DNA from: a virus
IMG/VR virus record: IMGVR_UViG_3300018080_000240
Location: 1 to 50,531 of that record
Length of the DNA: 50,531 nucleotides
Strand: one strand, 5' to 3'
Both the position numbers and the translations under genes were made by a program. Shown piece by piece: positions 16,116 to 46,055 of the stretch; positions within the stretch are counted from its first letter, which is position 1, and each line of letters opens with the position of its first letter. The notes under the pieces are model-generated. The model did no database searches, was not told where the DNA came from, and saw nothing but the letters and a program-made list of their open reading frames with translations.

Positions 16116-16174
16116 CCTGGATCTGAATTATGAATCCTATATATCTACGTCTAATAAACGTGAAAGGGGTGCCG

Positions 16175-17659
16175 ATGTTTAAGTGGCTTTTAGAAAAGGT
16201 GAAAGAGTTGTTGGTGGAAAAAGAAGTGCCCGAAGCCGCACTCATTAAGCCCGGCATACGGTTCAATTATTTGATTAACGATCCAACCACTCCGAACCTC
16301 AAAACACAGGTGACAATTCCTCCTCCTCCAGCCGAAATGAGGCTGATAGTACATGGTCACAAATTGCACAGTGGTCCGCCGAGAGAGGGGTCGATGGAAG
16401 AGTTGGCTGCCAACTGCTACTACACCCTTGTGACAACAATTTGTGCGACCCGGCGAGCCATGGTGAACTACAGAAGGCCAATGGCGAAGTGGGCAGCAAC
16501 CAACAGGCTGAGCGTCTTTCCGGCTGCGGGGAAGGACTTCAATGCTTATTACAACCGAAGGGCGATCAAATTCTTTTACGACACCGACCCAGTGACTCGC
16601 AAGAGGGTCTACACCGCCGCTTCTTCTGACATTGTGGCTCATGAGTTGGGGCATGCCATTTTAGATGCCATCCGCCCAGATTTTTGGAGTGTGCAGGCCA
16701 TGGAAATTTGGGCTTATCACGAGGCTTTTTCGGACATTACGGCCCTGCTTCACGTGTTGGAGTTTGATGAGGTTTTGGAAAGAATGCTCAAGGAAACTGA
16801 TGGTGACATTAGCAAGCCCAATGTGGCCACTCGCTTGGCCGAACAAATGGGCAATGCAATCTACCATGTGACCAGAGGCCAATATGGTTACACGCCCGGA
16901 GCCTTGCGTGATGCCACAAATGATTTTAAGTATGTGCCTCTCAAAAAACTTCCGAAAGACGCTCCAGATGATAAGTTGGCCGCAGAATGCCACAGTTTCG
17001 GCAGGGTGTTTTTAGGAGCTTGGTACGATATGTTTGTGGGAATTCACAGACAGGAGGTTGAGGCGGGCAGAGAACCAATTGAAGCTCTGAAGATCGCTCG
17101 TAATGTAGGGCGTGACTATCTTCTAAGGGCCACTGGAATCGCCCCACGTGTGGCCAGATTCCACAACGCCATTGCCAGAGCGATTTTATCTGAAGACAGA
17201 AAGCAAGGCGGTCCTTATCAACAGGTTATTCGGAAAGCCTTCACCAACAGGGCTTTAATTGCCAAAGGTGTGCGAGCCTTATCAGGCAAAACTTTCGATG
17301 ACGTAAAGACCCAACTCAAGCCCGGCGATGAAGTGACTTGGGAGGATGATGGTGCAATTGTTCGCATGCAGGGTCTTCAAACCATTAAGCTTTCCGACTA
17401 CAGCAAGGGTAAAGTGAGTATGCTTTCAGTAAACGGTGTAGATCTGGCAGATGTTGAGTTGGAAGTGGCGATGGACTCCTACTATGAGTTCGATGGGGAT
17501 GGTGTGATGGTTGATGAGATTCTGCCGCTGCAAGAAGATGCAGTGGATGCCGCTAGGGCGTGCGTTCTCTCCATCCAGGCCGCAGGCAATATTGGTCCCA
17601 GTCCCGAACTAATGTGGGAAGTCGAAGATGGCAAGCTTGTGCGAACGTTGATTGAGTAA
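16175..17659 (+). CDS. HExxH zinc metallopeptidase, thermolysin-like gluzincin (494 aa)
   Basis: Residues 153-163 read IVAHELGHAIL (zinc ligands His156, His160, catalytic Glu157). The third ligand is Glu183 in YHEAFSDITALL, and this HExxH...EAFSD pattern matches the gluzincin/M4-like peptidases. A SFGRVFLGAWYDM segment further on (about 275) resembles the M4 active-site helix region. No signal peptide is seen, although the N-terminus has a short amphipathic helix. The last 130 residues form an extra beta-rich domain. I chose the ATG at 16175 after AAAGGGG over one at 16130. It could process virion proteins or attack host proteins. Confidence 0.82.
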   Translation: MFKWLLEKVKELLVEKEVPEAALIKPGIRFNYLINDPTTPNLKTQVTIPPPPAEMRLIVHGHKLHSGPPREGSMEELAANCYYTLVTTICATRRAMVNYRRPMAKWAATNRLSVFPAAGKDFNAYYNRRAIKFFYDTDPVTRKRVYTAASSDIVAHELGHAILDAIRPDFWSVQAMEIWAYHEAFSDITALLHVLEFDEVLERMLKETDGDISKPNVATRLAEQMGNAIYHVTRGQYGYTPGALRDATNDFKYVPLKKLPKDAPDDKLAAECHSFGRVFLGAWYDMFVGIHRQEVEAGREPIEALKIARNVGRDYLLRATGIAPRVARFHNAIARAILSEDRKQGGPYQQVIRKAFTNRALIAKGVRALSGKTFDDVKTQLKPGDEVTWEDDGAIVRMQGLQTIKLSDYSKGKVSMLSVNGVDLADVELEVAMDSYYEFDGDGVMVDEILPLQEDAVDAARACVLSIQAAGNIGPSPELMWEVEDGKLVRTLIE

Positions 17660-31363: not shown

Positions 31364-32380
31364 TTAGCCCTGGTCGGCGGCTTCAGCCGCTATTAAGCAA
31401 CCACGGGCTACGCTATATAGAGGGTCTTTTGGACGAATTATATTACCAATTTCAATTGGCAGGTTGGCTCGTCCGACCAGTTCCTTGAACATTGTGTCGA
31501 AACCGGGCGGCTGGCTCGTTCCGCCAGCAATCACAATGTCAATGGGATTATCGTGGCGAGCTTTATTGCCCTTCTCTTCCAGTCCACCTTTGATGCCGGT
31601 GATGGTTTTGGACATCATTATCTCGTACTGGGCCTTGATGGCTCGCTGCACAAGCGATTCGGGCTCAATGGTGAGATCCGCTTTCATCTTTTCTTTGTTG
31701 ATGAAGGTTGGCGTTTCACCAGTGGCTTTGGCAGACATCTTGTCAATCCAGTCGCCGGAATTTACGAGTGAGAATTGGAAGATAGGAGCGCCATAGATGG
31801 CAAAGCACAGATTGACCATGCCCGCCCCAAAGCTGATGCCAATGCCTGTGTAAGCCTTGTCGGCCAATTCGGCATACACCAATGCTAGACCTTCGTTTAT
31901 GGGGTGGGCGGAAATCTTGCGACCTTCGCCATCCTTGAAGGCTCTAAAGATCTGTTCCAACACTTTGGCGTGGTAGTCGGCATCCGTTTCTTCGTTGATG
32001 GCATTTGCGGGAACACTGTAGTACAGGGTTTCGCCATCCGACTTCACTTCGTCCAAGAGGCTGTGAATCATGATGCTCATTATTTGCTGGGCACTTTTTT
32101 CTTGTGGATTGAGACATCCAGCATTCATGGGTCTGCGGAGTTCTATGCCTGTCATGGTGTAGGCCATGTTGACGGCGGCTTCGCCCAATGCATAGGCCGT
32201 GTTGTTGTCTTTTCTTTCAATGAGGGGCACGCCAGCCTTCTTCATCATGTTGAAGACGAATCTGTTTTCCAGAGGCATACGCAGGAAGGCATTGACTTCT
32301 CGTTTGTTAACGAAGTTGCCCTCATCATCCCTTTTGCAGCAAACTAGGTTGTATGTGCCGCAGTCAAAACCGATTGCCAT
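31364..32380 (-). CDS. Actin-like ATPase (ParM/Hsp70-actin superfamily), 338 aa
   Basis: Phosphate-1 loop IGFDCGTYNLV (3-13), phosphate-2 loop GIGISFGAGMVNL (179-191) and adenosine motif IVIAGGTSQPPGF (282-294) are the three signature segments of the actin/Hsp70/ParM fold. Length is typical of ParM-type filament proteins (about 320-340). A phage actin-like protein could form filaments that position DNA or virions. Phage tubulins do this in jumbo phages, and actin-like proteins are also known. The start at 32380 has GGAGG 5 bases upstream. The longer reading to 32455 lacks a site. It follows a small gene by one base, suggesting a two-gene unit. Confidence 0.83.
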   Translation of the reverse strand: MAIGFDCGTYNLVCCKRDDEGNFVNKREVNAFLRMPLENRFVFNMMKKAGVPLIERKDNNTAYALGEAAVNMAYTMTGIELRRPMNAGCLNPQEKSAQQIMSIMIHSLLDEVKSDGETLYYSVPANAINEETDADYHAKVLEQIFRAFKDGEGRKISAHPINEGLALVYAELADKAYTGIGISFGAGMVNLCFAIYGAPIFQFSLVNSGDWIDKMSAKATGETPTFINKEKMKADLTIEPESLVQRAIKAQYEIMMSKTITGIKGGLEEKGNKARHDNPIDIVIAGGTSQPPGFDTMFKELVGRANLPIEIGNIIRPKDPLYSVARGCLIAAEAADQG

Positions 32381-32381
32381 T

Positions 32382-32624
32382 TTAATCCTCCACTTGTTTT
32401 CCGAATTGAAGCTTTTCGCCGCCAAAGTCTGGAATTGCCCAGTTGATCTCGTCATCGTCAGCTTGTTGGGCCTTAAGGGTGGAGGCGCTAACTTTCACCC
32501 CCTCGGCATTGATGTTGATGTCGAGATGTAGGTTAATGTCCAGTTTTACTTCACCATTTTTCGTAACCACTTTTTTGGTTACAATTTCTTTGGTGACCTG
32601 TGATCCTCTAACGACGTTTGGCAT
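32382..32624 (-). CDS. Small partner of the actin-like gene (80 aa)
   Basis: It begins MPNVVRGSQVTKEIVTKK; the middle strand-rich part (EVKLDINLHLDININAEGV) alternates charged and hydrophobic residues. The C-terminal part is acidic with a PDFGGEKL motif. Its stop is one base before the ATG of the actin-like gene, whose GGAGG site lies inside its last codons, so the two are made together. Plasmid actin systems pair a filament protein with a small DNA-binding adaptor (ParR). No DNA-binding motif proves this one is such an adaptor. Confidence 0.65.
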   Translation of the reverse strand: MPNVVRGSQVTKEIVTKKVVTKNGEVKLDINLHLDININAEGVKVSASTLKAQQADDDEINWAIPDFGGEKLQFGKQVED

Positions 32625-32686: not shown

Positions 32687-33646
32687 TTAATAAGGCCACC
32701 TCTGGAACATCTTGTCCACAGCCTGGATGATTTCCTCAGCCGTGATTTCAGTTAAGCAGGGTTTCGGCACTCCTTTTCCTTTATGGCAGTTGGCCCAGTT
32801 GTAGCAAGGACCACAATCCCAGCCGTCGTCTCGGTGTTTCTGAACCAGGAAAAAATCGAAATATTTTCCGTACACCTTGCCGTCTGCAAAGGTGAAAATG
32901 CCCACAAGAGGCTTCTTCAATTCTCCCGCCAGATGGAAATGGCTCGTGTCTACAGTGATGACGTAATCCGCCTCGTTGACCACCCCCATCCATTGGGCGA
33001 AAGAGATGTTGTAAATAACCGGTACGTTGATCTCGTGTAGCTCAGGGATGGGGTACTTATGTGTGGAGAAAACAAAACAACCCTTGGATCGCAGATGGTC
33101 TATGACTGGATTCATTTGGTGAGGCAAAAGGTCTTTGACCTTCATGGCGGAAATGGGACAGAACAGGACTTTGGGGCTCTTGCCATCCCAGATTTCCCCC
33201 ACCAGTCGTTTGCCCTCTTCCTTCATTTCCTCCGTGATAGTGAGGTGCATGTTGTGGTTGTGAAGGAACACGCCGCAATGTTGTGCCCAGATGTCGCTCC
33301 GGTGGAGTCCGGAAAAGGGTGCCATGCCGATCTCGTATCTTGTGCATGCACTCGTCGTGTTGTAGTGGACTATCCAGTCCAGGGGCTCTATCTTCATGCA
33401 GTCGGCAAGGTGGTCTATGTGGGGGTGTCCTTCCATCACAGGAAAATAGGTAGATCTACACGCCAATGTAATTTCGGCCTCTGGCATCAATTTCTTAAAG
33501 TCCTCGAACATCATACGATGAATGAGCATGTCGCCGAGTCCGCCCGTCTCCCGCACCACCAACACCTTGTTTCTTTTCTTGTGGAATTCACGTAGCGTAA
33601 GTGGGGCAGGTATCTTAATCTCTTTCTTCTTGATGAACTTGGGCAT
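32687..33646 (-). CDS. Glycosyltransferase family 9-like (heptosyltransferase-like) protein (319 aa)
   Basis: GGLGDMLIHRMMFEDFKK (35-52) is the N-terminal loop and helix of GT-9 enzymes. A late TVDTSHFHLAGELKKPLVGIF segment matches the conserved C-terminal Asp-Thr/Ser-x-x-x-His-x-Ala pattern that binds ADP-heptose. ADP-heptose:LPS heptosyltransferases are the known members, but related phage enzymes may use other sugars. A Cys-rich end (CGPCYNWANCHKGKGVPKPC) is unusual for the family. Start at 33646; GAAAGGTC lies about 18 bases upstream. This is probably part of the phage's glycan gene set. Confidence 0.78.
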   Translation of the reverse strand: MPKFIKKKEIKIPAPLTLREFHKKRNKVLVVRETGGLGDMLIHRMMFEDFKKLMPEAEITLACRSTYFPVMEGHPHIDHLADCMKIEPLDWIVHYNTTSACTRYEIGMAPFSGLHRSDIWAQHCGVFLHNHNMHLTITEEMKEEGKRLVGEIWDGKSPKVLFCPISAMKVKDLLPHQMNPVIDHLRSKGCFVFSTHKYPIPELHEINVPVIYNISFAQWMGVVNEADYVITVDTSHFHLAGELKKPLVGIFTFADGKVYGKYFDFFLVQKHRDDGWDCGPCYNWANCHKGKGVPKPCLTEITAEEIIQAVDKMFQRWPY

Positions 33647-33659
33647 GAGCTTAATAGAG

Positions 33660-33688
33660 TTGCGCTTAGACCTTTCTTGTGTTATAAT
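33660..33688 (+). promoter_or_regulatory. Sigma70-type promoter TTGCGC-N17-TATAAT
   Basis: A -35-like TTGCGC at 33660 and perfect -10 TATAAT at 33683-33688 have the ideal 17-base spacing. The ATG at 33695 is six bases after the -10, so transcription would begin at or very near the start codon, giving a leaderless message. Confidence 0.6.
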
Positions 33689-33694
33689 GATGGT

Positions 33695-33988
33695 ATGGAA
33701 ATACAAGAATACGTAGCGAAATACTCGGAAGACCTGAAAAGACGACTACAGGAAACGCCTGATTTTCCCAAAAGTAGTCCGCCAGCAAATCCTGCGTGGG
33801 CTGATAACGTTGAGTGCGTCTTGTATGTCGCTCTGGATCAATTCCAAAGCCAAGAACTAGACTACCTTTCAGAGGCAGCCGATCAAGTGCGTCGTGAAAT
33901 GGAAGCTCTGGCGGACTCTATTCAGGAGCAGTACCCTGACTACGAGTTCGAGGATTGGGTTCACTGGGCCTACTGGTCTGCCGAATAA
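33695..33988 (+). CDS. Small acidic helical protein (97 aa), likely early gene
   Basis: Family not recognised. It appears to be mostly helical, rich in Glu, Asp, Gln and Trp, with a Trp-rich end (FEDWVHWAYWSAE). A sigma70-type promoter with optimal spacing lies directly upstream, making it a probable early gene inside an otherwise late, minus-strand region. The start codon is at the expected transcription start, without a ribosome site. Its 3' end overlaps the convergent sulfotransferase-like gene by 71 bases. Confidence 0.7.
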   Translation: MEIQEYVAKYSEDLKRRLQETPDFPKSSPPANPAWADNVECVLYVALDQFQSQELDYLSEAADQVRREMEALADSIQEQYPDYEFEDWVHWAYWSAE

Positions 33989-34682
33989 CCTCCCTGGTAA
34001 TATCTGGGTAGATGGCCTCGGCATATTCCCAAAGCTTCTTTCTCTTCATCAATGTTCGCCATGATTTGCGATCAACAGCGCACTTCCATCGATTGTGTGT
34101 GACTTGTATGTCTTTTTGGGCAAATTCCCCCTCTTGTCCTTTCTTGAAAAAGCCGCCACGAATCGCCCTTCTATTGCGTGCTATCTTGTCTTTGTGAGGG
34201 AAGAACTTCATTCCCAATTCTTCAGCCTTGGACTTTCGATAGTCTACGCTGTCGCACCAAGAGTTGTAATTACACTTATAGAAACTAGGCAGTACATGTG
34301 TTTCTCCCAGCCATTCAGCAGCGTATGCCTCCCACTTATCCAGTATTTTCGCTACAGGTTTGTGGTTTTCTCGGAATGTGTGTATGAAACTGGCAAGTGT
34401 GTTAAATGGGTCTCGCAGATGTATGATGTACTTCTGCTCTTGGAATTCCACGTTATTACTGTTGACGACAACAAGATCTCTTGTCTCATAATTAGAAATA
34501 ATAGTTCGCCATTCATCTTCACAGTCGCCTTTGAGTCTTTTTACATCCAAAGGAAGTTCGGGAAGGACATCGTTCCAATGGGCTCGTGGAGCAGGGCTTA
34601 ACGCCAGAATCCATTTGATGGCGGCGTGGCAGCCGCTTCTTCTCGTCGAAAAGAAACAGAACCATGTGTGTGTTTGAATCAT
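33918..34682 (-). CDS. Sulfotransferase-like protein (254 aa)
   Basis: FFSTRRSGCHAAIKWIL (about 10-26) is the PAPS 5'-phosphosulfate loop (Arg-Arg-Ser-Gly-x-His, as in other sulfotransferase-like proteins). YIIHLRDPFNTLASFIHTF (about 90-108) is the 3'-phosphate-binding Arg-Asp-Pro segment. The C-terminal helical part has several basic segments. It is the third member of this superfamily in the window, but sequence between motifs differs from the other two, so they are not recent copies. I chose 34682 because a terminator hairpin lies just upstream of it. A start at 34742 would run through the hairpin. Confidence 0.72.
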   Translation of the reverse strand: MIQTHTWFCFFSTRRSGCHAAIKWILALSPAPRAHWNDVLPELPLDVKRLKGDCEDEWRTIISNYETRDLVVVNSNNVEFQEQKYIIHLRDPFNTLASFIHTFRENHKPVAKILDKWEAYAAEWLGETHVLPSFYKCNYNSWCDSVDYRKSKAEELGMKFFPHKDKIARNRRAIRGGFFKKGQEGEFAQKDIQVTHNRWKCAVDRKSWRTLMKRKKLWEYAEAIYPDITREVIRQTSRPSEPNPRTRSQGTAPE

Positions 34683-34701
34683 ATAAGTATCTAGACATAA
34701 T

Positions 34702-34733
34702 AAAAAACCCTCCGACCTTTGGTCGGAGGGTTT
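34702..34733 (-). terminator. Strong terminator after the structural gene
   Basis: A perfect 13-bp stem with loop AAA (minus strand), followed on the minus strand by six T residues. It lies 26 bases past the stop at 34759 and ends the structural gene's transcript. Confidence 0.88.
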
Positions 34734-34758
34734 CTGTATCAATGTTGTCGAATCAAGC

Positions 34759-35379
34759 TTAGCTCTTGCACACGGACTTGACGGACAGAAGAATTTCTAC
34801 CACGACAGGACCAGTAGCGCCAGATTCGTTGTTGGCGATTTCGATCTTGCTGATGGAAAGATCGCCAGCGTTGAAGATCTGGACTTCGGAAGCGGACAGT
34901 GTGAAGACTGCATCGGTGTTCCCATTCAGTCGAACGGTAACGGCCTGAGCGCCGTGGCTGTTGGTTAGCTGTGCGAAGGACGCATAGCCGCCAGTGTCGC
35001 CAAGGATGTCTGCCACGTTGTCTGCAAAACCGGTGCCTGCGCCAACACTGAGGCTGTAAACCTTCGGGTAGGTGTTCTCGCCAGGAACGTCGCTGTAAAC
35101 GCTGCCATCGTCAGAAACGATTTCAACGACTGCGTGCTCAAGGGCGCACCCTTCCGGGTTTGCTGTCGGATGATAAGGCGCAAATCTCTTCCAGTAGTTG
35201 CAATCTGTGAACTGCTCACCATCCACCATCAGGCGGTTGACCTTGTTCGGGCCCATTACATAGACCTGACGTTGAAGACTGGTGGCCATTTGACCTGCGG
35301 CCTTCAGTGGATTGGCAGTGGGCTGACGGTCCAAAAGACCCTGTGCCGTAGAGTTGAGGTTTACTTTGAATACGCTCAT
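34759..35379 (-). CDS. Virion structural protein, probably abundant (206 aa)
   Basis: Composition is typical of a virion protein: beta-rich, many Ala, Gly, Val, Ser, Asn, few charged runs. A C-terminal strand-rich domain (SISKIEIANNESGATGPVVVEILLSVKS) looks like a decoration or tail component. The exact role is not known. It is transcribed alone, from a TATATAA-type promoter-like site about 45 bases upstream, and stopped by a strong terminator 26 bases downstream. That layout is common for a highly expressed capsid-decorating or tail-tube gene. GGGAGAAACA precedes the ATG at 35379. Confidence 0.75.
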   Translation of the reverse strand: MSVFKVNLNSTAQGLLDRQPTANPLKAAGQMATSLQRQVYVMGPNKVNRLMVDGEQFTDCNYWKRFAPYHPTANPEGCALEHAVVEIVSDDGSVYSDVPGENTYPKVYSLSVGAGTGFADNVADILGDTGGYASFAQLTNSHGAQAVTVRLNGNTDAVFTLSASEVQIFNAGDLSISKIEIANNESGATGPVVVEILLSVKSVCKS

Positions 35380-35424
35380 TGTTTCTCCCAAGAAATTTAG
35401 AGGTTCTCATGGTCCATCTTCAAG

Positions 35425-36578: not shown

Positions 36579-36883
36579 GCTTTTCGCACGTAGCATCGAT
36601 GGATGTTGAATGAGCCTCCATCTACCTCAATCAAGAAGGTTTTGTCGTCCACATCAATGATGGTTCCGCCATCTTCCATGAATCGTTCTGCTAGGTCTTC
36701 TGCAACTCCTTCGTTGGCATCCATTTTAGCCAGTAGTCTTTCAGTGTCTATTTTGGATTCGACAGCTACGCCAACGAAGGGTTTGGGTCGTCGTGTAATG
36801 CCACTAGGTTCATCGGATGGGTCTTGATTCCTCATCCATTTCTTAAAGTGTTCAAGTGAGAATCTATGCTCTTTATAATCCAT
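36575..36883 (-). CDS. Small protein, weak capsid-targeting-like segment near N-terminus (102 aa)
   Basis: Residues 8-18 (FSLEHFKKWMRN) partly fit the shared N-terminal pattern but start seven residues later than in the other tagged proteins. A compact domain follows (VGVAVESKIDTERLLAKMDANEGVAEDLAERFMEDGGTIIDVDDKTFLIEVDGG), with alternating helix and strands, of unknown family. It overlaps the upstream gene by 11 bases (ATGGATTATAA contains both start and stop), so translation is coupled. Confidence 0.65.
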   Translation of the reverse strand: MDYKEHRFSLEHFKKWMRNQDPSDEPSGITRRPKPFVGVAVESKIDTERLLAKMDANEGVAEDLAERFMEDGGTIIDVDDKTFLIEVDGGSFNIHRCYVRKA

Positions 36884-37739
36884 CGTGCTGTTCTTCCTTG
36901 AAGAATTCAGGTAACTCGCTGTCTGTTATATATGTAGCATTATTAAGATTTATCCCACTTGAGTGAGATCCAATTTGTACGTTTGCCTTTCGCAGCCAAT
37001 AGAGCATCCCATCGATCACCCTCTGCCCGGTTGCTTGTTGGGGGTATGTCCAAAGGCCATTCTCCAATTGTATTGCGGCAGGCCGTTCGTCCTCAAATGA
37101 GTCATCACAACAAAAGAGAAGTAGCTTCTTCACTCCGAATTTATAGGCCAGATGAATGCCTGCGCAGATGGGATTGCGATAGTCATCTACATAGAAATGC
37201 CCCTCAAATCTTGGCCCCGAATAAAATCTGCTAGGTGTTGTTCGATAGGTGTAAATGGTACTTCGGTAAGCCTCTAAGAATTCGGGATTGGTTCGGTTAG
37301 CGGCGATGCAGGGAGGACAATAATTATGCTTGGGCAAATATGTCACACATTGAATAAAGGGGTTGTTGACCACATAGCACGAAATGCCCCGTCTTGTTTC
37401 TCTGGTTTTTTCGTGGAGTTTCCACTTTGCTAGAGCGCCATTTGTTGCCATCACCACCACTCTTCCTTCTAGTTGACAGAGCAACTCCTGCTTTGCCTCA
37501 AAATCGTATCCATCTGATACAATTACCAAATTGGAAAAATCGTAGTGCTCCTGTTCAACAACGGCATATCTTCCCTTGATGTTCTTAAATTCATTTTGGA
37601 GGAATAGGGCGTGGTCCTCTTTCGTGCATAGGTTGTTTAGATCCACAGCCTTTGCATGGCGTTTACAGAGGTTTCTCACCCAAATGCCGTCTTCAGTAAG
37701 AAGGTATTCGTTTTTGTTGGAGTGTTTCTTTATTCTCAT
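36873..37739 (-). CDS. DUF115 / MAF-like protein (288 aa)
   Basis: NLVIVSDGYDFEAKQELLCQL followed by VVVMATNGALAKWKLHEK, and later AGIHLAYKFGVKKLLLFCCDDSFE, is the pattern of the DUF115/MptE-like fold. It includes MAF enzymes thought to transfer nonulosonic acids to flagellin and 6-hydroxymethylpterin pyrophosphokinase. The match to the G-I-H-x-A-x-x-x-G-x-K-x-x-x-L-x-x-x-D core is clear, but the phage protein is shorter than MAF enzymes. With the other glycan genes it suggests a sugar or nonulosonate modification. Its ATG overlaps the stop of the giant repeat gene (ATGA). Confidence 0.62.
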   Translation of the reverse strand: MRIKKHSNKNEYLLTEDGIWVRNLCKRHAKAVDLNNLCTKEDHALFLQNEFKNIKGRYAVVEQEHYDFSNLVIVSDGYDFEAKQELLCQLEGRVVVMATNGALAKWKLHEKTRETRRGISCYVVNNPFIQCVTYLPKHNYCPPCIAANRTNPEFLEAYRSTIYTYRTTPSRFYSGPRFEGHFYVDDYRNPICAGIHLAYKFGVKKLLLFCCDDSFEDERPAAIQLENGLWTYPQQATGQRVIDGMLYWLRKANVQIGSHSSGINLNNATYITDSELPEFFKEEQHDGL

Positions 37740-40700
37740 TTTTTACCACATGGGACTAAACGGAAGCAGTCATCTCCAAGTTCCTCGGTGACTTTTTCCA
37801 TATTCAGTTCTAGAGGTACTGGACCGCCTCTATAAACAAGTGGAACTTCGACGTTTTCAGGCACCTTAAGGTGGATCTCGTCGGGCAGGTTGTGTTTGAG
37901 TTCAATGGATTCAGGAATGCCCTTCACTTGGATGTGTGTGGGCCAACCGGATGCATCCAGCTTGATTGCCGATGGGAAGTTTTTGGGCATCTCCAAACGG
38001 ATCGCTCCAGGTATGTTGGATTCGACTTTGATCGATTCCGGGAGATCGGATACCACCTTAATCTTCCAGGGGATCTTCGGTACGTCTACAAAACTTATTT
38101 CCTTCGGTAGCGGTTCCTCTGGTCCCACAAGTCGCACATCGGGGATTGCAGGAACATTCAGGTCGATGCTTACCGGCAAGTCGTGGACGATCTTGATGTT
38201 GGGCAATTTGGGCGCTACGATTTTGATCTCGGAGGGGATGCCCAAGTCTGCTGTTTCGACGTTGGCTGTAATGTCGAATCCGTCCTCGAAGTCTTCGATG
38301 TCGGCACTTTCCATGTAGTTGAGTGCTCGCATGCTTGCCGCTGCGGCTGATGGACAGGTTACCGTGACCGTGCATGAGCAAACAATGGGATCGGGACTGC
38401 CCCACTCAACGGAGATCATGGGAGCCTCTTCTGCGTTCCAATCAATACCAATTGTTGCGGTATCCAAAGCGGAGGCGTCAACCGAAATGGTTTGCCCTTC
38501 CAGGCAAGAACAGTCGAGGCTGATGGTTTCGGGCACACTTGAAGCATCAACAGATATGGAAAAATCTGGTTCACACAGAGAAATACACCATGTAGGTTCC
38601 TTGAATGAAAAATCACTGATCCATGCGGGCATTTGGAATTCAGCACTGGCCCACCAACCGGGCTCCTTGAATTCGGCGTCATCCCACCAAGCGGGCGGTC
38701 CTTTGAATTCGGCGCTATTCCACCAACCGGGCTGTGCCTTGAAGTCTACTTGTTGCCACCAAGCGGGCATTCCTGCAAAATCTACTTGGTCCCACCAAGC
38801 GGGCTCGTATATTGTCAAGGGATCTAATGGTTCTACGCTCACGCTGATTGCCGCACTACCGCTGGTATCAAGCGAAATCACGCAGTCAGTGCAATCAATG
38901 GGAATAGAGCAGTTGCTTGGGCATTGAAGGTCTACGGTACAATTCGTGGGGCATTCTAATGAAACGTTCCACGTGGGTTCGTTAATGTCCAGGTTCCATG
39001 AGGGTTCGCTGATCGATAGATCCCATGCGGGCTCGGCCAGTTCTACGCTGCAATCGGTGGGACAAACCAAATCAATGGTGCAATCGCTTGGGCACTCTAA
39101 TTGAATTGCCCACGTGGGTTGTTTCAGGTCAATTGACCAAGTGGGCTCATCTACTGAGATGGACCAGTTGGGTTCGGCAACGGAAAGATCCCATGCTGGT
39201 TGTGTTAGTTCAACGGAACAGTTTGCGCAGTCCAATGTTATACTACAATCTGTGGGGCATTCTACAGATAGGTTCCATGACGGTTCGGCAACGTTGAGAT
39301 CCCAAGTGGGCTCTGTTAATTCCACCGAACAACTTGTGCAATCCAATTCGACACTGCAATCTGTGGGACAGTTGAGATCAATGCTGCATTCAGAAGGGCA
39401 ATGAACGTTGAGGTTGACATCGACCGTTGCGTTGTCTAGTTGCGAGGCGTCGAGGATAACGCTGGCATTGTCCAAACAAGAACAATCCAAAGAAATGTTC
39501 TGTAAACCCGAAGTGTCCAGGGAAATGTTTTCCAATCCGGTGGTGTCCAAGGAAATGGTGCAGTCTGTGGGGCACTCCAAGCTGACTATGCAATTAGATG
39601 GGCATTCCAGCGGGATACTCCAGGTGGGTTGCTCTAGCTCGATAGTTTTCCCTGTGGTGTCCAGTTCGACGGAACATTGCTCGCAATCCAAGGTGACACT
39701 GCAATCTGTGGGACAGACCAAATCGACCGAGCATTCTTCCGGGCACTCCAAAGACATTCTGCAATCCGATGGGCACTCAATGCTGATGTTCACTTCAATG
39801 GGGTCCACTTCCAGCGAGATATTTTGTAATCCGGATGTGTCCAGTGAAATATTCTGCAAATCTGCAATAAGCGATACGTTGTGCAACCCTACCGTAATCA
39901 AGGATATGTTGTCTATTGGCGGCACGATCAGTGACGGGTTGTTGATCGTAATGGGCGGCACGATCAGCGACGGGTTGTTGATCGTAATGGGCGGCACGAT
40001 CAGCGACGGATTCGGAATATCTCCGATGGTCACTGATACCTGAACTGGTGGAATGTTAATTGGTGGTACAATCAACGATGGGTTGTTGATCGTGATTGGT
40101 GGTACGATCAGCGACGGATTGTTGATTGTCATTGGCGGCACGATCAGCGATATATTTCCAATTGGCGGAACAACCAGTGACGGATTTGGAATCGGCGGCA
40201 CTATCAACGACGGATTGTTGATGTTGATCGGCGGCACGATTAGTGACGGGTTGTTCAATTGCGGCACATTAACCGTTACTGAAACTGGAGGAATGTTGAT
40301 CGGCGGCACGATCAGCGATGGATTCTTAATGTCGGGCATAAACACTGTGACCGAGATCGGCGGAATGTTCGGTGGGATAACCGAGATCGGCGGAATGTTC
40401 GGTGTGTTGATATGAATCGACGTGGGAATCTGTGGTGTATTTATGTGAATCGATGTTGGAATGTTCGGGCTGTTGATATGGATCGAAGTCGGAATATTCG
40501 GCGTATTTATGTGAATCGAAGTGGGGATCTTCGGTGTGTTAATGTAAATTGAAGTTGGTATCTTCGGACTGTTAATATGGATCGATGTGGGGATGTTCGG
40601 GCTGTTCACATGGATCGACGTTGGAATGTTCGGACTGTTGATATGGATCGACGTTGGTATCTTCGGTGTGTTGATATGGATCGACGTTGGGATCTTCGGT

Positions 40701-42388
40701 GTGTTAATGTGGATCGATGTTGGAATGTTCGGCGTATTTATGTGAATCGATGTTGGAATCTTCGGTGTGTTAATGTGGATCGATGTTGGAATGTTCGGCG
40801 TATTTATGTGAATCGACGTTGGGATCTTCGGTGTATTGATATGAATCGAAGTCGGAATGTTCGGCGTATTTATGTGGATCGACGTTGGTATCTTCGGTGT
40901 GTTGATATGGATCGAAGTCGGGATCTTTGGCGTATTGATGTGAATCGACGTTGGGATGTTCGGTGTATTGATGTGGATCGAAGTCGGGATCTTTGGCGTA
41001 TTGATATGGATCGAAGTCGGGATCTTCGGTGTGTTAATGTGGATCGAAGTCGGGATCTTTGGCGTATTGATATGGATCGAAGTCGGGATCTTCGGTGTGT
41101 TAATGTGTATCGACGTTGGAATATTCGGCGTATTGATGTGTATCGACGTTGGAATATTCGGCGTATTGATGTGTATCGACGTTGGGATCTTCGGCACGAT
41201 CAACGAGATGTTTGGAATCGACGGCACGATCAACGAGATGTTTGGAATCGACGGCACGATCATTGAAATGATCGAGGGGAATTCGGGTACATCCAAAAAG
41301 ACCACGACACTGGGGATGTTGAAGTCCGGGATGTCAAATTGCACCACACTGGGCAAGTCGAACTCTGGAATGTCGAACAATATCACACTGGGAAGTTCTA
41401 TTTCGGGCGTAATCAAAATCACACTGGGGATATTCAGATCCGGCGTGATGAGAATTACGCTGGGGATTCCCAAGCCCAGGTCAAATTCCGGAATCGATAT
41501 GTTGATATAAATCGATGGGAATTCAATGTCTGGGATGTCAAAACAAGGGAATGTAATTGGTGGCGTAGTCCAGTCAGTGGATAGGTTGAAGTCGGGTACG
41601 CTACAATTTGGGAAGTCAGGAACTTCACATGTGGGAACCTCAAACGGTTCCGGTTCTTCGCTGGGCGGCGGCTCTTCTGGATCTTGCCTTTCTATGGGCG
41701 TAATGACCACCTGACAATCTTCATTAGATACCGTGACCACTGGATCGGGCAGGGTGTTTGGAGGGTAAACATGTGTTCCAGTTAAATTCGTGGTCGTAGA
41801 ACCATCGCCAAAATCCAAAGTGTATTGAGTGTAGTCCCCCTCGATGGCCACTCTGTATTCAACAGTGATTCCTCGGAGCGGGTCTTCCGTGGTGATGATG
41901 TCAAAATCCACGATGACGCACTGCTTGTCATCAATGATGTCGTCTTCTTCAATCGCCAGTTCTAAATCATCGAATTTCTCAAGGATGAACCCCTCTACGA
42001 TTTCAATCGTATCCACTAGTTGGTTGTGGTGCTCGGCCATCACAAAGCCTCTTGCCCAACTGCGATTACATCCCCCTTGACGAGCGGAATTGAACTTTGT
42101 GCCGCTTCCTCCCAAATTTCGGGCGCATCTTTTGAGTTTATTCACCTTGCCGTAGGCGTCTTTTTCAACACTGTCGTAGTAAATGATCTCGCCCGCAATG
42201 TTGCAAAAGCCGTTGTCAGGCCATATTTCTTCCTCATCCGGATGCACGGGAACGATGTCGATCTCTTCAGCCCAAGCTTCATTGTCTGAAGCCAGACGAG
42301 ATTCTGTCGTGTTGTACACCTTGAAAAGCGTGTAGTCCGAATCAATTGCGAGTGGATAAACGGGATGTGGAGGAAATCCTACTGCCAT
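37736..42388 (-). CDS. Giant repeat protein, putative tail fibre or whisker (1550 aa)
   Basis: N-terminal module (1-140) with MAEHHN (117-122), shared with the two upstream genes, then a PKD-like LDFGDG (191-196) domain. The rest is repeats: IPSVILI/LPSVV units (about 290-400); 24 tandem 11-residue IPTSIHINTP(K/N) units (about 400-663); NPSLIVPPI units (about 664-830); NISLDTSGLQ units; Cys-rich CP(S/T)(D/N)C-SVEL units with EPTW(D/N)LSV units (about 850-1180); W-rich PAWWxxxEFK units (1186-1276); and a final region of degenerate IPxSIxL units. The protein has very many Ile, Pro and Cys. A beta-solenoid or fibrous structure is likely. It is late in a tail operon. Confidence 0.88.
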   Translation of the reverse strand: MAVGFPPHPVYPLAIDSDYTLFKVYNTTESRLASDNEAWAEEIDIVPVHPDEEEIWPDNGFCNIAGEIIYYDSVEKDAYGKVNKLKRCARNLGGSGTKFNSARQGGCNRSWARGFVMAEHHNQLVDTIEIVEGFILEKFDDLELAIEEDDIIDDKQCVIVDFDIITTEDPLRGITVEYRVAIEGDYTQYTLDFGDGSTTTNLTGTHVYPPNTLPDPVVTVSNEDCQVVITPIERQDPEEPPPSEEPEPFEVPTCEVPDFPNCSVPDFNLSTDWTTPPITFPCFDIPDIEFPSIYINISIPEFDLGLGIPSVILITPDLNIPSVILITPEIELPSVILFDIPEFDLPSVVQFDIPDFNIPSVVVFLDVPEFPSIISMIVPSIPNISLIVPSIPNISLIVPKIPTSIHINTPNIPTSIHINTPNIPTSIHINTPKIPTSIHINTPKIPTSIHINTPKIPTSIHINTPKIPTSIHINTPNIPTSIHINTPKIPTSIHINTPKIPTSIHINTPNIPTSIHINTPKIPTSIHINTPNIPTSIHINTPKIPTSIHINTPNIPTSIHINTPKIPTSIHINTPKIPTSIHINSPNIPTSIHVNSPNIPTSIHINSPKIPTSIYINTPKIPTSIHINTPNIPTSIHINSPNIPTSIHINTPQIPTSIHINTPNIPPISVIPPNIPPISVTVFMPDIKNPSLIVPPINIPPVSVTVNVPQLNNPSLIVPPININNPSLIVPPIPNPSLVVPPIGNISLIVPPMTINNPSLIVPPITINNPSLIVPPINIPPVQVSVTIGDIPNPSLIVPPITINNPSLIVPPITINNPSLIVPPIDNISLITVGLHNVSLIADLQNISLDTSGLQNISLEVDPIEVNISIECPSDCRMSLECPEECSVDLVCPTDCSVTLDCEQCSVELDTTGKTIELEQPTWSIPLECPSNCIVSLECPTDCTISLDTTGLENISLDTSGLQNISLDCSCLDNASVILDASQLDNATVDVNLNVHCPSECSIDLNCPTDCSVELDCTSCSVELTEPTWDLNVAEPSWNLSVECPTDCSITLDCANCSVELTQPAWDLSVAEPNWSISVDEPTWSIDLKQPTWAIQLECPSDCTIDLVCPTDCSVELAEPAWDLSISEPSWNLDINEPTWNVSLECPTNCTVDLQCPSNCSIPIDCTDCVISLDTSGSAAISVSVEPLDPLTIYEPAWWDQVDFAGMPAWWQQVDFKAQPGWWNSAEFKGPPAWWDDAEFKEPGWWASAEFQMPAWISDFSFKEPTWCISLCEPDFSISVDASSVPETISLDCSCLEGQTISVDASALDTATIGIDWNAEEAPMISVEWGSPDPIVCSCTVTVTCPSAAAASMRALNYMESADIEDFEDGFDITANVETADLGIPSEIKIVAPKLPNIKIVHDLPVSIDLNVPAIPDVRLVGPEEPLPKEISFVDVPKIPWKIKVVSDLPESIKVESNIPGAIRLEMPKNFPSAIKLDASGWPTHIQVKGIPESIELKHNLPDEIHLKVPENVEVPLVYRGGPVPLELNMEKVTEELGDDCFRLVPCGKK
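40398..41189 (-). repeat. 24 tandem 33-bp coding repeats (IPTSIHINTPK/N)
   Basis: The array codes 24 copies of an 11-residue unit with almost constant residues IPTSIHINTP. The eleventh residue is mostly Lys or Asn, once Gln. DNA copies differ mainly at third positions, so both protein sequence and period are selected. Such in-frame tandem repeats can gain or lose copies by recombination, changing fibre length. Confidence 0.92.
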
Positions 42389-42415: not shown

Positions 42416-44785
42416 TTAGTAGACTCCCATGGTAAATTGCTCACCTGTTGGCCTTGCTGTTATGACGGTAAATGTAATGTCTTGACCGTTAAACTTAATG
42501 AACGCATTGGGGCTGTAATCGTAACTTAGGTATGCCGCCCGATCATCGTCCGAGGCTGCCAGTAATGTGTGGGCTTGATTGTCGAAACCCAAAACACTGA
42601 TGTCTTGCACTGATCTGAAGCTCAAAGAACTCAGCGATGGCCCACCTGTTTCCCATGAACCGGTGGTCGTATTATATGCTGAAACGTTGCCCGAGTTATT
42701 AAAGAAGAAGACGCCGTTTGTTAGTGAAACAAATTGTCCTTCTAGTTTTGTTGGCCCCGCCATATCAGGCAGCTTTTTAATCGTTTGGAATTCTGAGCCC
42801 ACTATGCCTTCTGTGCGGTAGAAACTTTTGATCTTGAAGAAGGGGTCAACGCCATCGTTTCTTGCGAAGTAGCCCGAACTGTCTTTCCAGCAACCCCGAT
42901 AAACAGCAAAATAGCCATTTTCTGGCTCGCCAGATTCATAACCCGAGGTGGCATGTTCACGAAGTTCATCAGCACCGTTTTCGTAGTCGCTTAGATCGAA
43001 AGTATAACTATCATTGTAGGTGCCATCGGCCTTGTCGAACACACCTTTCGTTTGATCTGATGGATTGGTGTCGGGTAGTATTGATCCAGTTGGCAATGAT
43101 CCGAATAAGAAATAACTCGTCGTGGGTGAATTAAGACATAGCCAGTTCCAATAGCGGTCGAGGGAAGGCTCTCCAGTATAGTATGTGTCTCGGAACCCCT
43201 CGTATTCTACCACTCGGATAGATTGACTGGCAGCAGGATTGAAGCCGCCCTGAGCCCAATAAAGCATTGCCAGACCCCGTTCGCCAGAGTTGGTGAGTGT
43301 TTTTGCAGAGAAGGACACGTTTCTATTGAACTCCCTTTCTGCTTGATCTTGATTGTTGCTACCTTCCAGGAAAGAGTCGTTCCTTTCTATTGAGAGCGTA
43401 ACGGGCAATGTCTTGAATGTCTCACTCACCAACCCGAATTCGCAAGCAGATGCAGTGGGACTATTGAACAGCCATAACCACAAATTCCTCTCTTCTACAA
43501 TATCCAGCGCATCTTCATATGTAGTGATTCGGTAGGCTCCATTTTGGGTATTGACCCTAACCTTCAGATCGTAAACGCCTCCAATGCTGTAAAGTCCCTT
43601 AGTGTAATTCAATTTGGCGTGATCCAAATCGTCGCCCATAGACCAAATGTATTCCACCACCGGGTCGTATTTCGCTTCTGTCACAGGATCGAGCCACTCG
43701 CCAGCTTGTGATCTCAATGGGTCGGAACCCAAAACAGCACTGTCTGGTATTTCCACGCTTATGAAATTCGTGGTGGGCGCACGAAGCACTGGGGTGACTG
43801 AATAAGGCCCTCCTACTGGTTCCCCTGATCTCACAAAGAATTGTTGGTTGATAGGGATGATGTCAATTACAGCTTCTTCGGGGGCCTCAACTCTTGGGTT
43901 GATTACTTCGGGGAAGGACACCGTGTCAGTTCCGTAGGCATTGCTGACGGTTAAAGACGGGCTATAGTAGCCCGCACTGGAGTATGGCTTAATGATGGTC
44001 TTTTTCAAGTAGGCGATTGAAGGATATTCATTGGTAAAATCAAGGACGCTCAGAACATTCACTTCTGGCCCCACCGAGATGACACTTAATGTGGGATCGG
44101 TAATAGAAACAACCTCGGTGCAGATGTTGGAAACACCGTCGCCGAAATCCCATACGAAGGTTAGATCTCCAGGCCCTAGTCTAAAACACTGTTCTTGAAA
44201 AGTTATTTCCAGGGGGGTCAATCCCAACGTCGCCCCTATGATCTTGAACCAAGCTTTGGGCGTAAACATTATTTTCAGAAGAAAGTTCAACCGGCCAGTA
44301 ATGGTGTCGCCTCGTGGCAGCGTGTCAACTGTGCCTTTCACGCCCATGAATTCTTCAATGGCAATTAGAGCTTCTTTTAAGTTGTTGTGATGGGAAGCTA
44401 TAACGTTCAATGTCACGTTGGTGAGTTCTTTTGGCTTAACCACTTCTGGGAACCCAGGCAGTGCCTCCAAGCTGCTGAATGTCGCCAATCGTTCTCCTGA
44501 AGCAGTGGTGGTGCCCAGAACGTAACTTGAATAATACAGACTGATTGCTCGTAGATCTCTTTCAAATTCACCTACGTCTAGAATGGTGCTGCACTGTTCA
44601 GTAAGCGTGATTATTCCGGATGGGGGGAATTTCTCCATCACTTTTATGTCACCGCTGACAGTGATGCTTGTATCTCCCGGTGTGTAATCTGCGACTAGTG
44701 TGCCTCGCAAAGCGTCGTGGACAAGATAGAGATTAGTATCACTGTCGAGGCTCTCGGGGTAGTTGGATGCTGTGGGTATAGTCAT
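42416..44785 (-). CDS. Large structural protein with shared N-terminal module and PKD domains (789 aa)
   Basis: The N-terminus matches the two neighbours: a segment with FPPSGIITL (53-61), then ASHHNN (130-135) followed by a helix (LKEALIAIEEFMG). A PKD domain has VWDFGDG (211-217), with a second WSMGDD-like strand near 390. The C-terminal half is beta-rich, with Tyr, Ser and Gly patterns like tail or receptor-binding proteins (GGFNPAASQSIRVVEYEGF, YEGCW-like). It is coupled between the giant repeat gene and the 420-residue gene, and ATAGGAGCAAA precedes the ATG. Probably part of the same fibre or baseplate complex. Confidence 0.8.
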   Translation of the reverse strand: MTIPTASNYPESLDSDTNLYLVHDALRGTLVADYTPGDTSITVSGDIKVMEKFPPSGIITLTEQCSTILDVGEFERDLRAISLYYSSYVLGTTTASGERLATFSSLEALPGFPEVVKPKELTNVTLNVIASHHNNLKEALIAIEEFMGVKGTVDTLPRGDTITGRLNFLLKIMFTPKAWFKIIGATLGLTPLEITFQEQCFRLGPGDLTFVWDFGDGVSNICTEVVSITDPTLSVISVGPEVNVLSVLDFTNEYPSIAYLKKTIIKPYSSAGYYSPSLTVSNAYGTDTVSFPEVINPRVEAPEEAVIDIIPINQQFFVRSGEPVGGPYSVTPVLRAPTTNFISVEIPDSAVLGSDPLRSQAGEWLDPVTEAKYDPVVEYIWSMGDDLDHAKLNYTKGLYSIGGVYDLKVRVNTQNGAYRITTYEDALDIVEERNLWLWLFNSPTASACEFGLVSETFKTLPVTLSIERNDSFLEGSNNQDQAEREFNRNVSFSAKTLTNSGERGLAMLYWAQGGFNPAASQSIRVVEYEGFRDTYYTGEPSLDRYWNWLCLNSPTTSYFLFGSLPTGSILPDTNPSDQTKGVFDKADGTYNDSYTFDLSDYENGADELREHATSGYESGEPENGYFAVYRGCWKDSSGYFARNDGVDPFFKIKSFYRTEGIVGSEFQTIKKLPDMAGPTKLEGQFVSLTNGVFFFNNSGNVSAYNTTTGSWETGGPSLSSLSFRSVQDISVLGFDNQAHTLLAASDDDRAAYLSYDYSPNAFIKFNGQDITFTVITARPTGEQFTMGVY

Positions 44786-44792
44786 TTTGCTC

Positions 44793-46055
44793 CTATATTA
44801 CCGTCAAAAGATCCGTGGCGGGCATAAACACCCTCTTCGTGCGCTGATCTGCAAACACCAACAATAGGGTCGCATTGTAAGATCCGGGCGATTCATATGT
44901 ATGGGTTGTGGAGTGTAAATCTGGGTCCAATTGTTCATGGGTTTCACCGTCGCCGAAAACCCAATATCTTCCGCCAATTTGGCCATCAGATTGGTCCACA
45001 AACTTGAACACTGTTGCTGTTGCCGTGGGTTCCACACCAGAGGCTACTCGGGCGTCTGCTGTCTGCTGAGAATAGAAAGCCTTCCTTATGGTGGCTCCGG
45101 TTTCATGATTGGCTGCATCCGTTTCCCCATAGCCACGCACTAAAGTTTTGAAAGATGTGGAGGTTTTGTTCCTGTATGCTATCTGTTCGTTCCCAATGAC
45201 CACCACCCCTTGGCTGGGAAACTCTGATGTGTCGGTCACAGGAATGATGGTATCGGTGGCAGCAAAGTTGGCTGTAAGTGCAGTTTCAATTTTTTCCGGA
45301 ATCACAATGTAGAAGAAAGAGGGTTTCTTTTCTTCCGAAACATGAATGTAGTTGTATTTGGTGGCTGCGCCTTGTCCGCCAGAAGAAGTGACGACATTCA
45401 ATTTGACCGTATAAATCCCCTCTGTGGCGTACACGTGCTCGGGGCTGTTTTCGTTTGAGTAAGTGCCGTCTCCAAAGTCCCAAAAACTGCGAACTACATC
45501 CCCGCCAGAGAAATTCTGAAATCTGACTTTAAGAGATGGTGGTCCCACTCTGGGATGGCCGAAGAAGGCGGCTTTGGGGGTCAAAAATCGTGCTTCTTGT
45601 TCCCTAAGTTTATAATTAAAAGAACCTTCAGCCGGATCGTTCCGAATGCCCAGAAAAGTCTCGATGTTAATGAGAGCATCTTTCACTGCGTTATGGTGTT
45701 CGGCCATTACAGCAGCGGTAACCGCTACGCCTGCTGGCCACGCACTCTGACGAGAACCAGCAAAACCTCTAATCAGATCCTTGAAGATGGTGTTGCCACG
45801 ACTTCCATAGAACACCAGTTCAGCATTGCCTGATTCGCCAGGGGCTACACCCACACGAATTAGCCCTTGGGCAGGAAAAGACGAGGCATCATCGACAATG
45901 ATTCTTTTGGCGTTGTATGTTAGACCTTGCTTTAGGAAAGTCTCCCCGTTATTGGCAGCCTCATATAAAGTTTCTCGGTCATCTACAGCGTCAGGAAAAA
46001 CAGAAAGGTCGCCCGGTTGGTAGCCATCATCTAAGCTTGATACTCTAGTCGGCAT
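44793..46055 (-). CDS. Structural protein with two copies of shared module and PKD domains (420 aa)
   Basis: MAEHHN is at 117-122, as in the giant protein, preceded by FPAQGLIRVG and a GSRGNTIFKDLIRG strand pair and followed by INIETFLGI. A first PKD domain has FWDFGDGTYSNE (191-202). The FP-S/A-QG-V/L module occurs a second time (SQGVVVIGNEQIAY...TLVRGYGE), with a second PKD (YWVFGDGETHE). It looks like an internally duplicated, shorter relative of its neighbours, likely a connector or adaptor in the same complex. It starts after AAAGGAGAAAG and overlaps the upstream gene by 11 bases. Confidence 0.82.
   Translation of the reverse strand: MPTRVSSLDDGYQPGDLSVFPDAVDDRETLYEAANNGETFLKQGLTYNAKRIIVDDASSFPAQGLIRVGVAPGESGNAELVFYGSRGNTIFKDLIRGFAGSRQSAWPAGVAVTAAVMAEHHNAVKDALINIETFLGIRNDPAEGSFNYKLREQEARFLTPKAAFFGHPRVGPPSLKVRFQNFSGGDVVRSFWDFGDGTYSNENSPEHVYATEGIYTVKLNVVTSSGGQGAATKYNYIHVSEEKKPSFFYIVIPEKIETALTANFAATDTIIPVTDTSEFPSQGVVVIGNEQIAYRNKTSTSFKTLVRGYGETDAANHETGATIRKAFYSQQTADARVASGVEPTATATVFKFVDQSDGQIGGRYWVFGDGETHEQLDPDLHSTTHTYESPGSYNATLLLVFADQRTKRVFMPATDLLTVI

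Follow-up and report, generated by a model that had tools for sequence, protein, structure and literature searches.

A block-built repeat protein of large tailed phages, probably a virion fibre with an expandable shaft between conserved ends

The 1550-residue repeat protein described here is best explained as a virion fibre or tether that is attached to the tail or baseplate and carries an expandable beta-repeat shaft, in large to huge tailed phages (probability about 0.68). The role with the best support, from the homology of the head domain and the synteny with a tail module, is that of a virion fibre. The protein likely works like a tail fibre, and its repeat type and C-terminus are without a match in the libraries searched. 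The fibre or tether shape, and the function of changes in its length, are what we infer.

The window, meaning the whole stretch of DNA that was analysed, spans the 50,531 bases of an IMG/VR virus record. It represents part of the genome of a large tailed phage that is uncultured, and has genes for a portal, a terminase with matches in the T4-like supergroup, a tail tube and a primase. The nearest named relative is LR756511.1, an uncultured phage of 595 kb. Elsewhere in the window, a 509-residue ORF (16130-17659, plus strand) matches Peptidase_M4 below threshold (E 0.014).

A preliminary description of this DNA, made from the sequence alone, had placed an ORF of 1550 residues at 37736-42388. 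This ORF is present, is on the minus strand and is open throughout. Its ATG is preceded by a Shine-Dalgarno-like AAAAGGA, and it ends in a TGA that overlaps the start codon of the gene after it (ATGA). The encoded protein has a head domain, a PKD domain, about 1050 residues of 9- to 13-residue repeats and a conserved C-terminus, with 51 Cys in total. Successive blocks of repeats are present, as had been described, although there are at least seven of them rather than six. The parts of the protein, all on the minus strand, are as follows.

41939..42388, minus: head domain, residues 1-150 (DSDYTLF..NGF..YYD..C.R..G..AEHHNQL), conserved in orthologues and proposed to attach to the virion
41684..41926, minus: PKD domain, residues 155-235 (Pfam PKD_4 E 0.0012, below cut-off; Foldseek on the model of an orthologue)
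41489..41683, minus: Pro/Glu-rich linker and start of the shaft, residues 236-300, from sequence; orthologues keep a P-rich motif near residue 280
41189..41488, minus: PSVILI block, residues 301-400, from motif counts and periodicity
40397..41188, minus: 24 tandem 11-residue units IPTSI[HY][IV]N[TS]P[KNQ], residues 401-664, from counts, TRF and pN/pS
39896..40396, minus: NPSLIVPP block with a 12-residue period, residues 665-831, from motif counts and periodicity
39776..39895, minus: NISLDTSGLQ block with a 10-residue period, residues 832-871 and again at 954-971, from periodicity
38819..39775, minus: CPxDC-SVEL and EPTW block of 9-10-residue units, residues 872-1190, from sequence and motif counts
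38597..38812, minus: PAWW-EFK block with a 12-residue period, residues 1193-1264, from motif counts and periodicity
38348..38596, minus: mixed units and the end-of-array motif ISVEWGSPDPIVCSCTVTVTCPS, residues 1265-1347; the motif is kept in orthologues
37799..38248, minus: C-terminal region of degenerate IPxxIxL units, residues 1381-1530 (48% identity to orthologue L015; found in 67 viral loci)
37736..37798, minus: C-terminal tail, which contains two Cys (CFRLVPC) and is conserved in the subgroup of the window, and stop

The evidence for attachment to the virion comes from the head domain and from the position of the gene. Alignment of the head with that of the protein encoded at 44793-46055 gives an hhalign probability of 99.7% (E 2.4e-25). 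Within the family of this neighbour, 10 of 12 members match the virion protein phrog_4406 and 9 of 12 the baseplate wedge phrog_2885. The head of one orthologue (L081) matches baseplate wedge PHROGs directly (E 1.6e-6 and 5.9e-6); together the neighbours and this orthologue match PHROGs for baseplate wedge, tail fibre and virion protein. The head of the window protein itself has no direct PHROG match, and the link is made via its orthologues and the neighbour. A head-domain motif is common to the repeat-protein family and to phrog_2885, phrog_438 and phrog_4406, all baseplate wedge or virion structural families, although these profiles match the head stretch only and leave the array and C-terminus uncovered.

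The genes surrounding the repeat gene are likewise conserved between related loci.

42416..44785, minus: PKD paralogue of 789 residues (PKD_4 E 3e-6), upstream in 50 of 50 loci
44793..46055, minus: PKD paralogue of 420 residues with the same head domain, upstream in 50 of 50 loci
36873..37739, minus: MptE-like gene overlapping the stop of the repeat gene, downstream in 66 of 66 loci and often overlapping
34759-35391, minus: 210-residue protein without a Pfam match, downstream in 41 of 42 related loci
32687..33706, minus: GT9 (heptosyltransferase-like; PF01075 E 5.3e-8), in 28 of 42 loci, a possible modifier that is not universal
31364-32455, minus: actin-like protein, Pfam Volactin, named for Haloferax (PF25216 E 1.5e-71), downstream in 38 of 42 loci

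A tail tube homologue is near the repeat gene in the window, and the corresponding gene run of LR756511 includes, upstream, a gene for a baseplate wedge (phrog_219, E 2e-31). With the PKD paralogues, these place the repeat gene in a tail/baseplate module. A sulfotransferase-like ORF (33918-34742, minus strand), with a PF00685 match below cut-off (E 0.045), was a candidate member of the cassette but was rejected, as no homologue of it was found in related loci.

No entry in Pfam, NCBIfam, PHROG or the PDB covers the repeats or the C-terminus. Pfam and PHROG scans of the long orthologues found nothing for the arrays, a PDB profile search with the C-terminus had no match (best E 0.27), and the Cys/Trp block searched alone against phages returned chance matches only. 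The match of this block to phrog_32118 (E 1.1e-5) does not recur in relatives and was set aside. The view that the layout belongs to no described family thus stands for Pfam, PHROGs, NCBIfam, the PDB and the open-licence literature searched.

The central block of the array contains exactly 24 copies of IPTSI[HY][IV]N[TS]P, each step being 11 residues, in agreement with the 24 tandem copies first reported. TRF finds the matching array in the DNA (24.2 x 33 bp, 81% matches). Other motifs recur less often: PSV[IV] five times, NPSL[IV]VPP nine, CP[STE][DEN]C twelve, DCxxC four, [EQ]P[TSNA]W twelve and P[AG]WW five. Each block was compared with 1000 composition shuffles of itself. In five blocks the periodicity was matched by none of the shuffles: the 24-unit block at a lag of 11, the Cys/Trp block at a lag of 10, and the NPSLIVPP, PAWW and mixed blocks at a lag of 12. 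Periodicity is weaker in the PSVILI block (reached by 1 of 1000 shuffles), the NISLDTSGLQ block (9 of 1000) and the C-terminal IPxxIxL region (6 of 1000). The core P-x(1-3)-phi-x-phi is present 80 times, where 37.5 +/- 5.6 would be found by chance.

Between the 24 units pS is 0.65 and pN 0.05 (pN/pS 0.077), values that may also be shaped by gene conversion between units. On these ratios the units are kept by selection. The high pS and low pN indicate drift in the DNA with the protein unit retained, and the array is therefore not a recent product of slippage. At a lag of two units pS is lower (0.48), hinting that the unit spread in two-unit steps.

Short repeats can be misassembled, in which case the length of the array would be wrong. 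In the related loci, contigs often end inside this gene: 39 of 154 ORFs bearing the N-terminus are cut at the 3' end, by the contig end or the flank limit, while 28 ORFs bearing the C-terminus begin at the end of a stretch. The reading frame, however, has no interruption, long arrays are found again in independent contigs, and the differences at synonymous sites mean that ordinary reads can tell the 24 units apart. A wrong array length through misassembly is highly improbable.

The family was reached via relatives of the terminase and then through alignment searches with the head and C-terminus. Protein BLAST against phages had found one record, LR756511.1 (29% identity), and a single-protein search of viral contigs (query P0001) had no match. 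The terminase relatives led to two contigs (G004 and G005), identical over the stretch compared, that encode a 727-residue homologue with both ends alike (48–49%) and a short array. The head and C-terminus searches reached 31, 67 and 80 (of 154) viral loci. After the removal of incomplete and near-duplicate entries there are 66 distinct complete orthologues of 488 to 2049 residues (median 767), the window protein being the second longest. The ends are stable at about 285 (N-terminal) and 215 (C-terminal) residues, and the array ranges from almost nothing to about 1550. The orthologues in LR756511.1 and the IMG/VR contigs have the head, PKD domain, C-terminus and gene order of the window. That of LR756511.1, which is unannotated there, differs in the sequence and length of its array (for example PPSFDCISFC units), the whole protein being ~674 residues. 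Outside the 66 is a protein of 2944 residues (L034:2545-11376) that keeps the head and lacks the usual C-terminus; in place of the array it has PATP linkers and about 2000 residues of GYxxGG-type repeats, and it matches phrog_19111. One orthologue (L113, RXKI01000071.1) is on a contig labelled as a Neisseriaceae bacterium MAG, which is probably a phage contig binned with that MAG.

Across the family the common unit is I-P-[TS]-x-I-[TS]-[FI]-[TG]-P-V-x. Among 890 unit-to-unit distances, 400 are exactly 11 residues, 191 are 10, 124 are 12 and 94 are 13. Repeat types by phage include FGPAPTIPTSIT, ITITPVTIPT, SFSWGTPPKIEGG, DDIPTTIYVY and PPSFDCISFC. This one grammar supports the original suggestion that a single short beta-like unit has diversified block by block. 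The comparison of repeat number that had been proposed as a check was made on close relatives, in which whole units have been gained or lost: L044 and L045 differ by six 11-residue gaps, among others, L036 and L045 by one 31-residue gap, and L067 and L069 by one 13-residue gap. In five of seven close pairs the pN/pS of the array is above that of both ends, although array alignments may be out of register and pN inflated by this; the pair L022/L024 does not follow this, and in L067/L069 the array and ends are almost level. In these five pairs the array appears to be under weaker purifying selection than the C-terminus, rather than under positive selection.

The content of Cys in the array is 8–12% in one group of relatives, 3.6% in the window and, for most of the family, no more than about 1%. 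The many CPxDC pairs had initially been taken to suggest metal or disulfide cross-links in a fibre. The window protein does have 16 CPxxC/DCxxC pairs (residues 872-1169) and the Cys-rich subgroup is consistent with cross-linking, yet the Cys of the window are confined to one block. As a mechanism for the family, cross-linking is not supported, given the Cys content of most relatives; for the same reason the pairs look like lineage-specific decoration. Such cross-linking might apply at most to lineages with Cys-rich arrays, and a fibre held together in this way is quite improbable.

In the AF2 model of the closest orthologue (721 residues), pLDDT is about 74–86 in the head, about 90 in the PKD domain and 30–45 in the array. 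Foldseek identifies PKD domains in this model at a probability of 1.00, which upholds the PKD assignment in the orthologue, while the Pfam score of the window protein itself falls short of the cut-off. Modelling of window residues 380-1550 gives one 5-residue strand per 11 residues in the 24-unit block (pLDDT ~73), a weaker beta pattern at the junction of the NISLDTSGLQ and CPxDC blocks (pLDDT ~52–65) and low values in the rest. AF2 is known to invent regular solenoids for near-perfect repeats, so that the strands of the 24-unit block may be an artefact (PMC11795689). A Foldseek search with the array model had no match below E 0.68. The rung of a solenoid is about 0.48 nm; if one unit were one rung, the shaft of the window protein would be a few tens of nm long, and an extended fibre would be longer.

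The low pLDDT over most of the array would also be expected of a flexible or disordered Pro-rich spacer that joins a docked head to a C-terminal contact domain, and the free mixing of 9- to 13-residue units fits one rigid geometry poorly. The arrays, however, are hydrophobic and low in charge, with all 60 tested on the folded side of a charge-hydropathy plot, a crude test that is independent of AF2. In addition, the phi-x-phi core is held in hundreds of units and the unit sequence is under strong purifying selection. A disordered spacer is therefore considered unlikely.

Trimeric shafts are known in other viral fibres, including the triple beta-spiral of adenovirus and reovirus and the triple beta-helix of T4 gp5. 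Like the repeat protein, these have short beta repeats between an anchoring and a C-terminal end, with Pro/Gly at the turns and a length set by copy number. Their repeats are of about 15 or 8 residues, against about 11 for the unit here, and no sequence match was found in the PDB. The ~15-residue phi-rich repeat of a triple beta-spiral is likewise not seen, the modal unit being 11 residues. A host-range tip is not usually conserved in the way that the C-terminus is here, and this counts against the fibre reading.

The neighbouring enzymes raise the potential for modification of the array. The MptE-like gene is translationally coupled to the repeat gene, and PF01973 is matched by 16 of 26 members of its family. 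The GT9 family has an invariant C-terminal cluster of four Cys, CxxC...C...C (C298, C301, C307 and C317). In BAHT systems, enzymes such as TibC glycosylate autotransporter repeats, and there too the repeat protein has as its neighbour a GT9-type enzyme that bears a cluster of four Cys (PMC4358343). By this analogy, glycosylation of the array by the neighbouring enzymes is plausible. The array would then carry glycans, its Ser/Thr-rich repeats (Ser+Thr 19.6% in the window) being decorated by the GT9 and the MptE-like enzyme, the latter encoded beside it in all 66 loci; the GT9 cluster recalls the iron finger of TibC (Cys339/342/358/370; PMC4358343). A dedicated GT9 is not always alongside, however, being absent within reach in 14 of 42 loci. 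The spacing of its Cys differs from TibC, and its profile matches LPS heptosyltransferases and not TibC (PDB, E <= 0.1). The role of the MptE-like enzyme is putative, with modification of DNA or of the host envelope equally possible. Glycosylation is here a candidate only, and an array that carries glycans is distinctly unlikely.

As a fibre, the protein would be docked on the tail or baseplate by the head and PKD domains that it has in common with two upstream genes, as their homology and synteny suggest. Its shaft would be one Pro-bounded unit of about 11 residues, repeated, with each copy adding one short beta-strand (phi-x-phi). Whole-unit gain, loss and local spreading, seen in the comparison of orthologues, would change both the length and the surface chemistry of the shaft. 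The C-terminal IPxxIxL region may be a conserved cap, or a region for oligomerisation or contact. The number and type of units would then tune reach and surface properties, leaving the ends for attachment unchanged.

Knowledge of large and huge phages comes mostly from metagenomes, and their appendages are still to be characterised. It is possible, and proposed tentatively, that the repeat protein represents a new 11-residue, Pro-bounded beta-fibre architecture: a tail appendage tunable in length and surface, which has fixed ends, evolves block by block in unit number and unit type between them, and may be decorated with sugars by phage enzymes. The complete relatives number more than 60, have fixed ends and arrays from near zero to about 1550 residues, and form a natural series of fibres of varied length and chemistry. 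Through this series the relation of repeat number to fibre length, the spread of new repeat types within one gene and whether the reach of the appendage matters for infection can be addressed, and the grammar of the unit may be a template for designed fibres.
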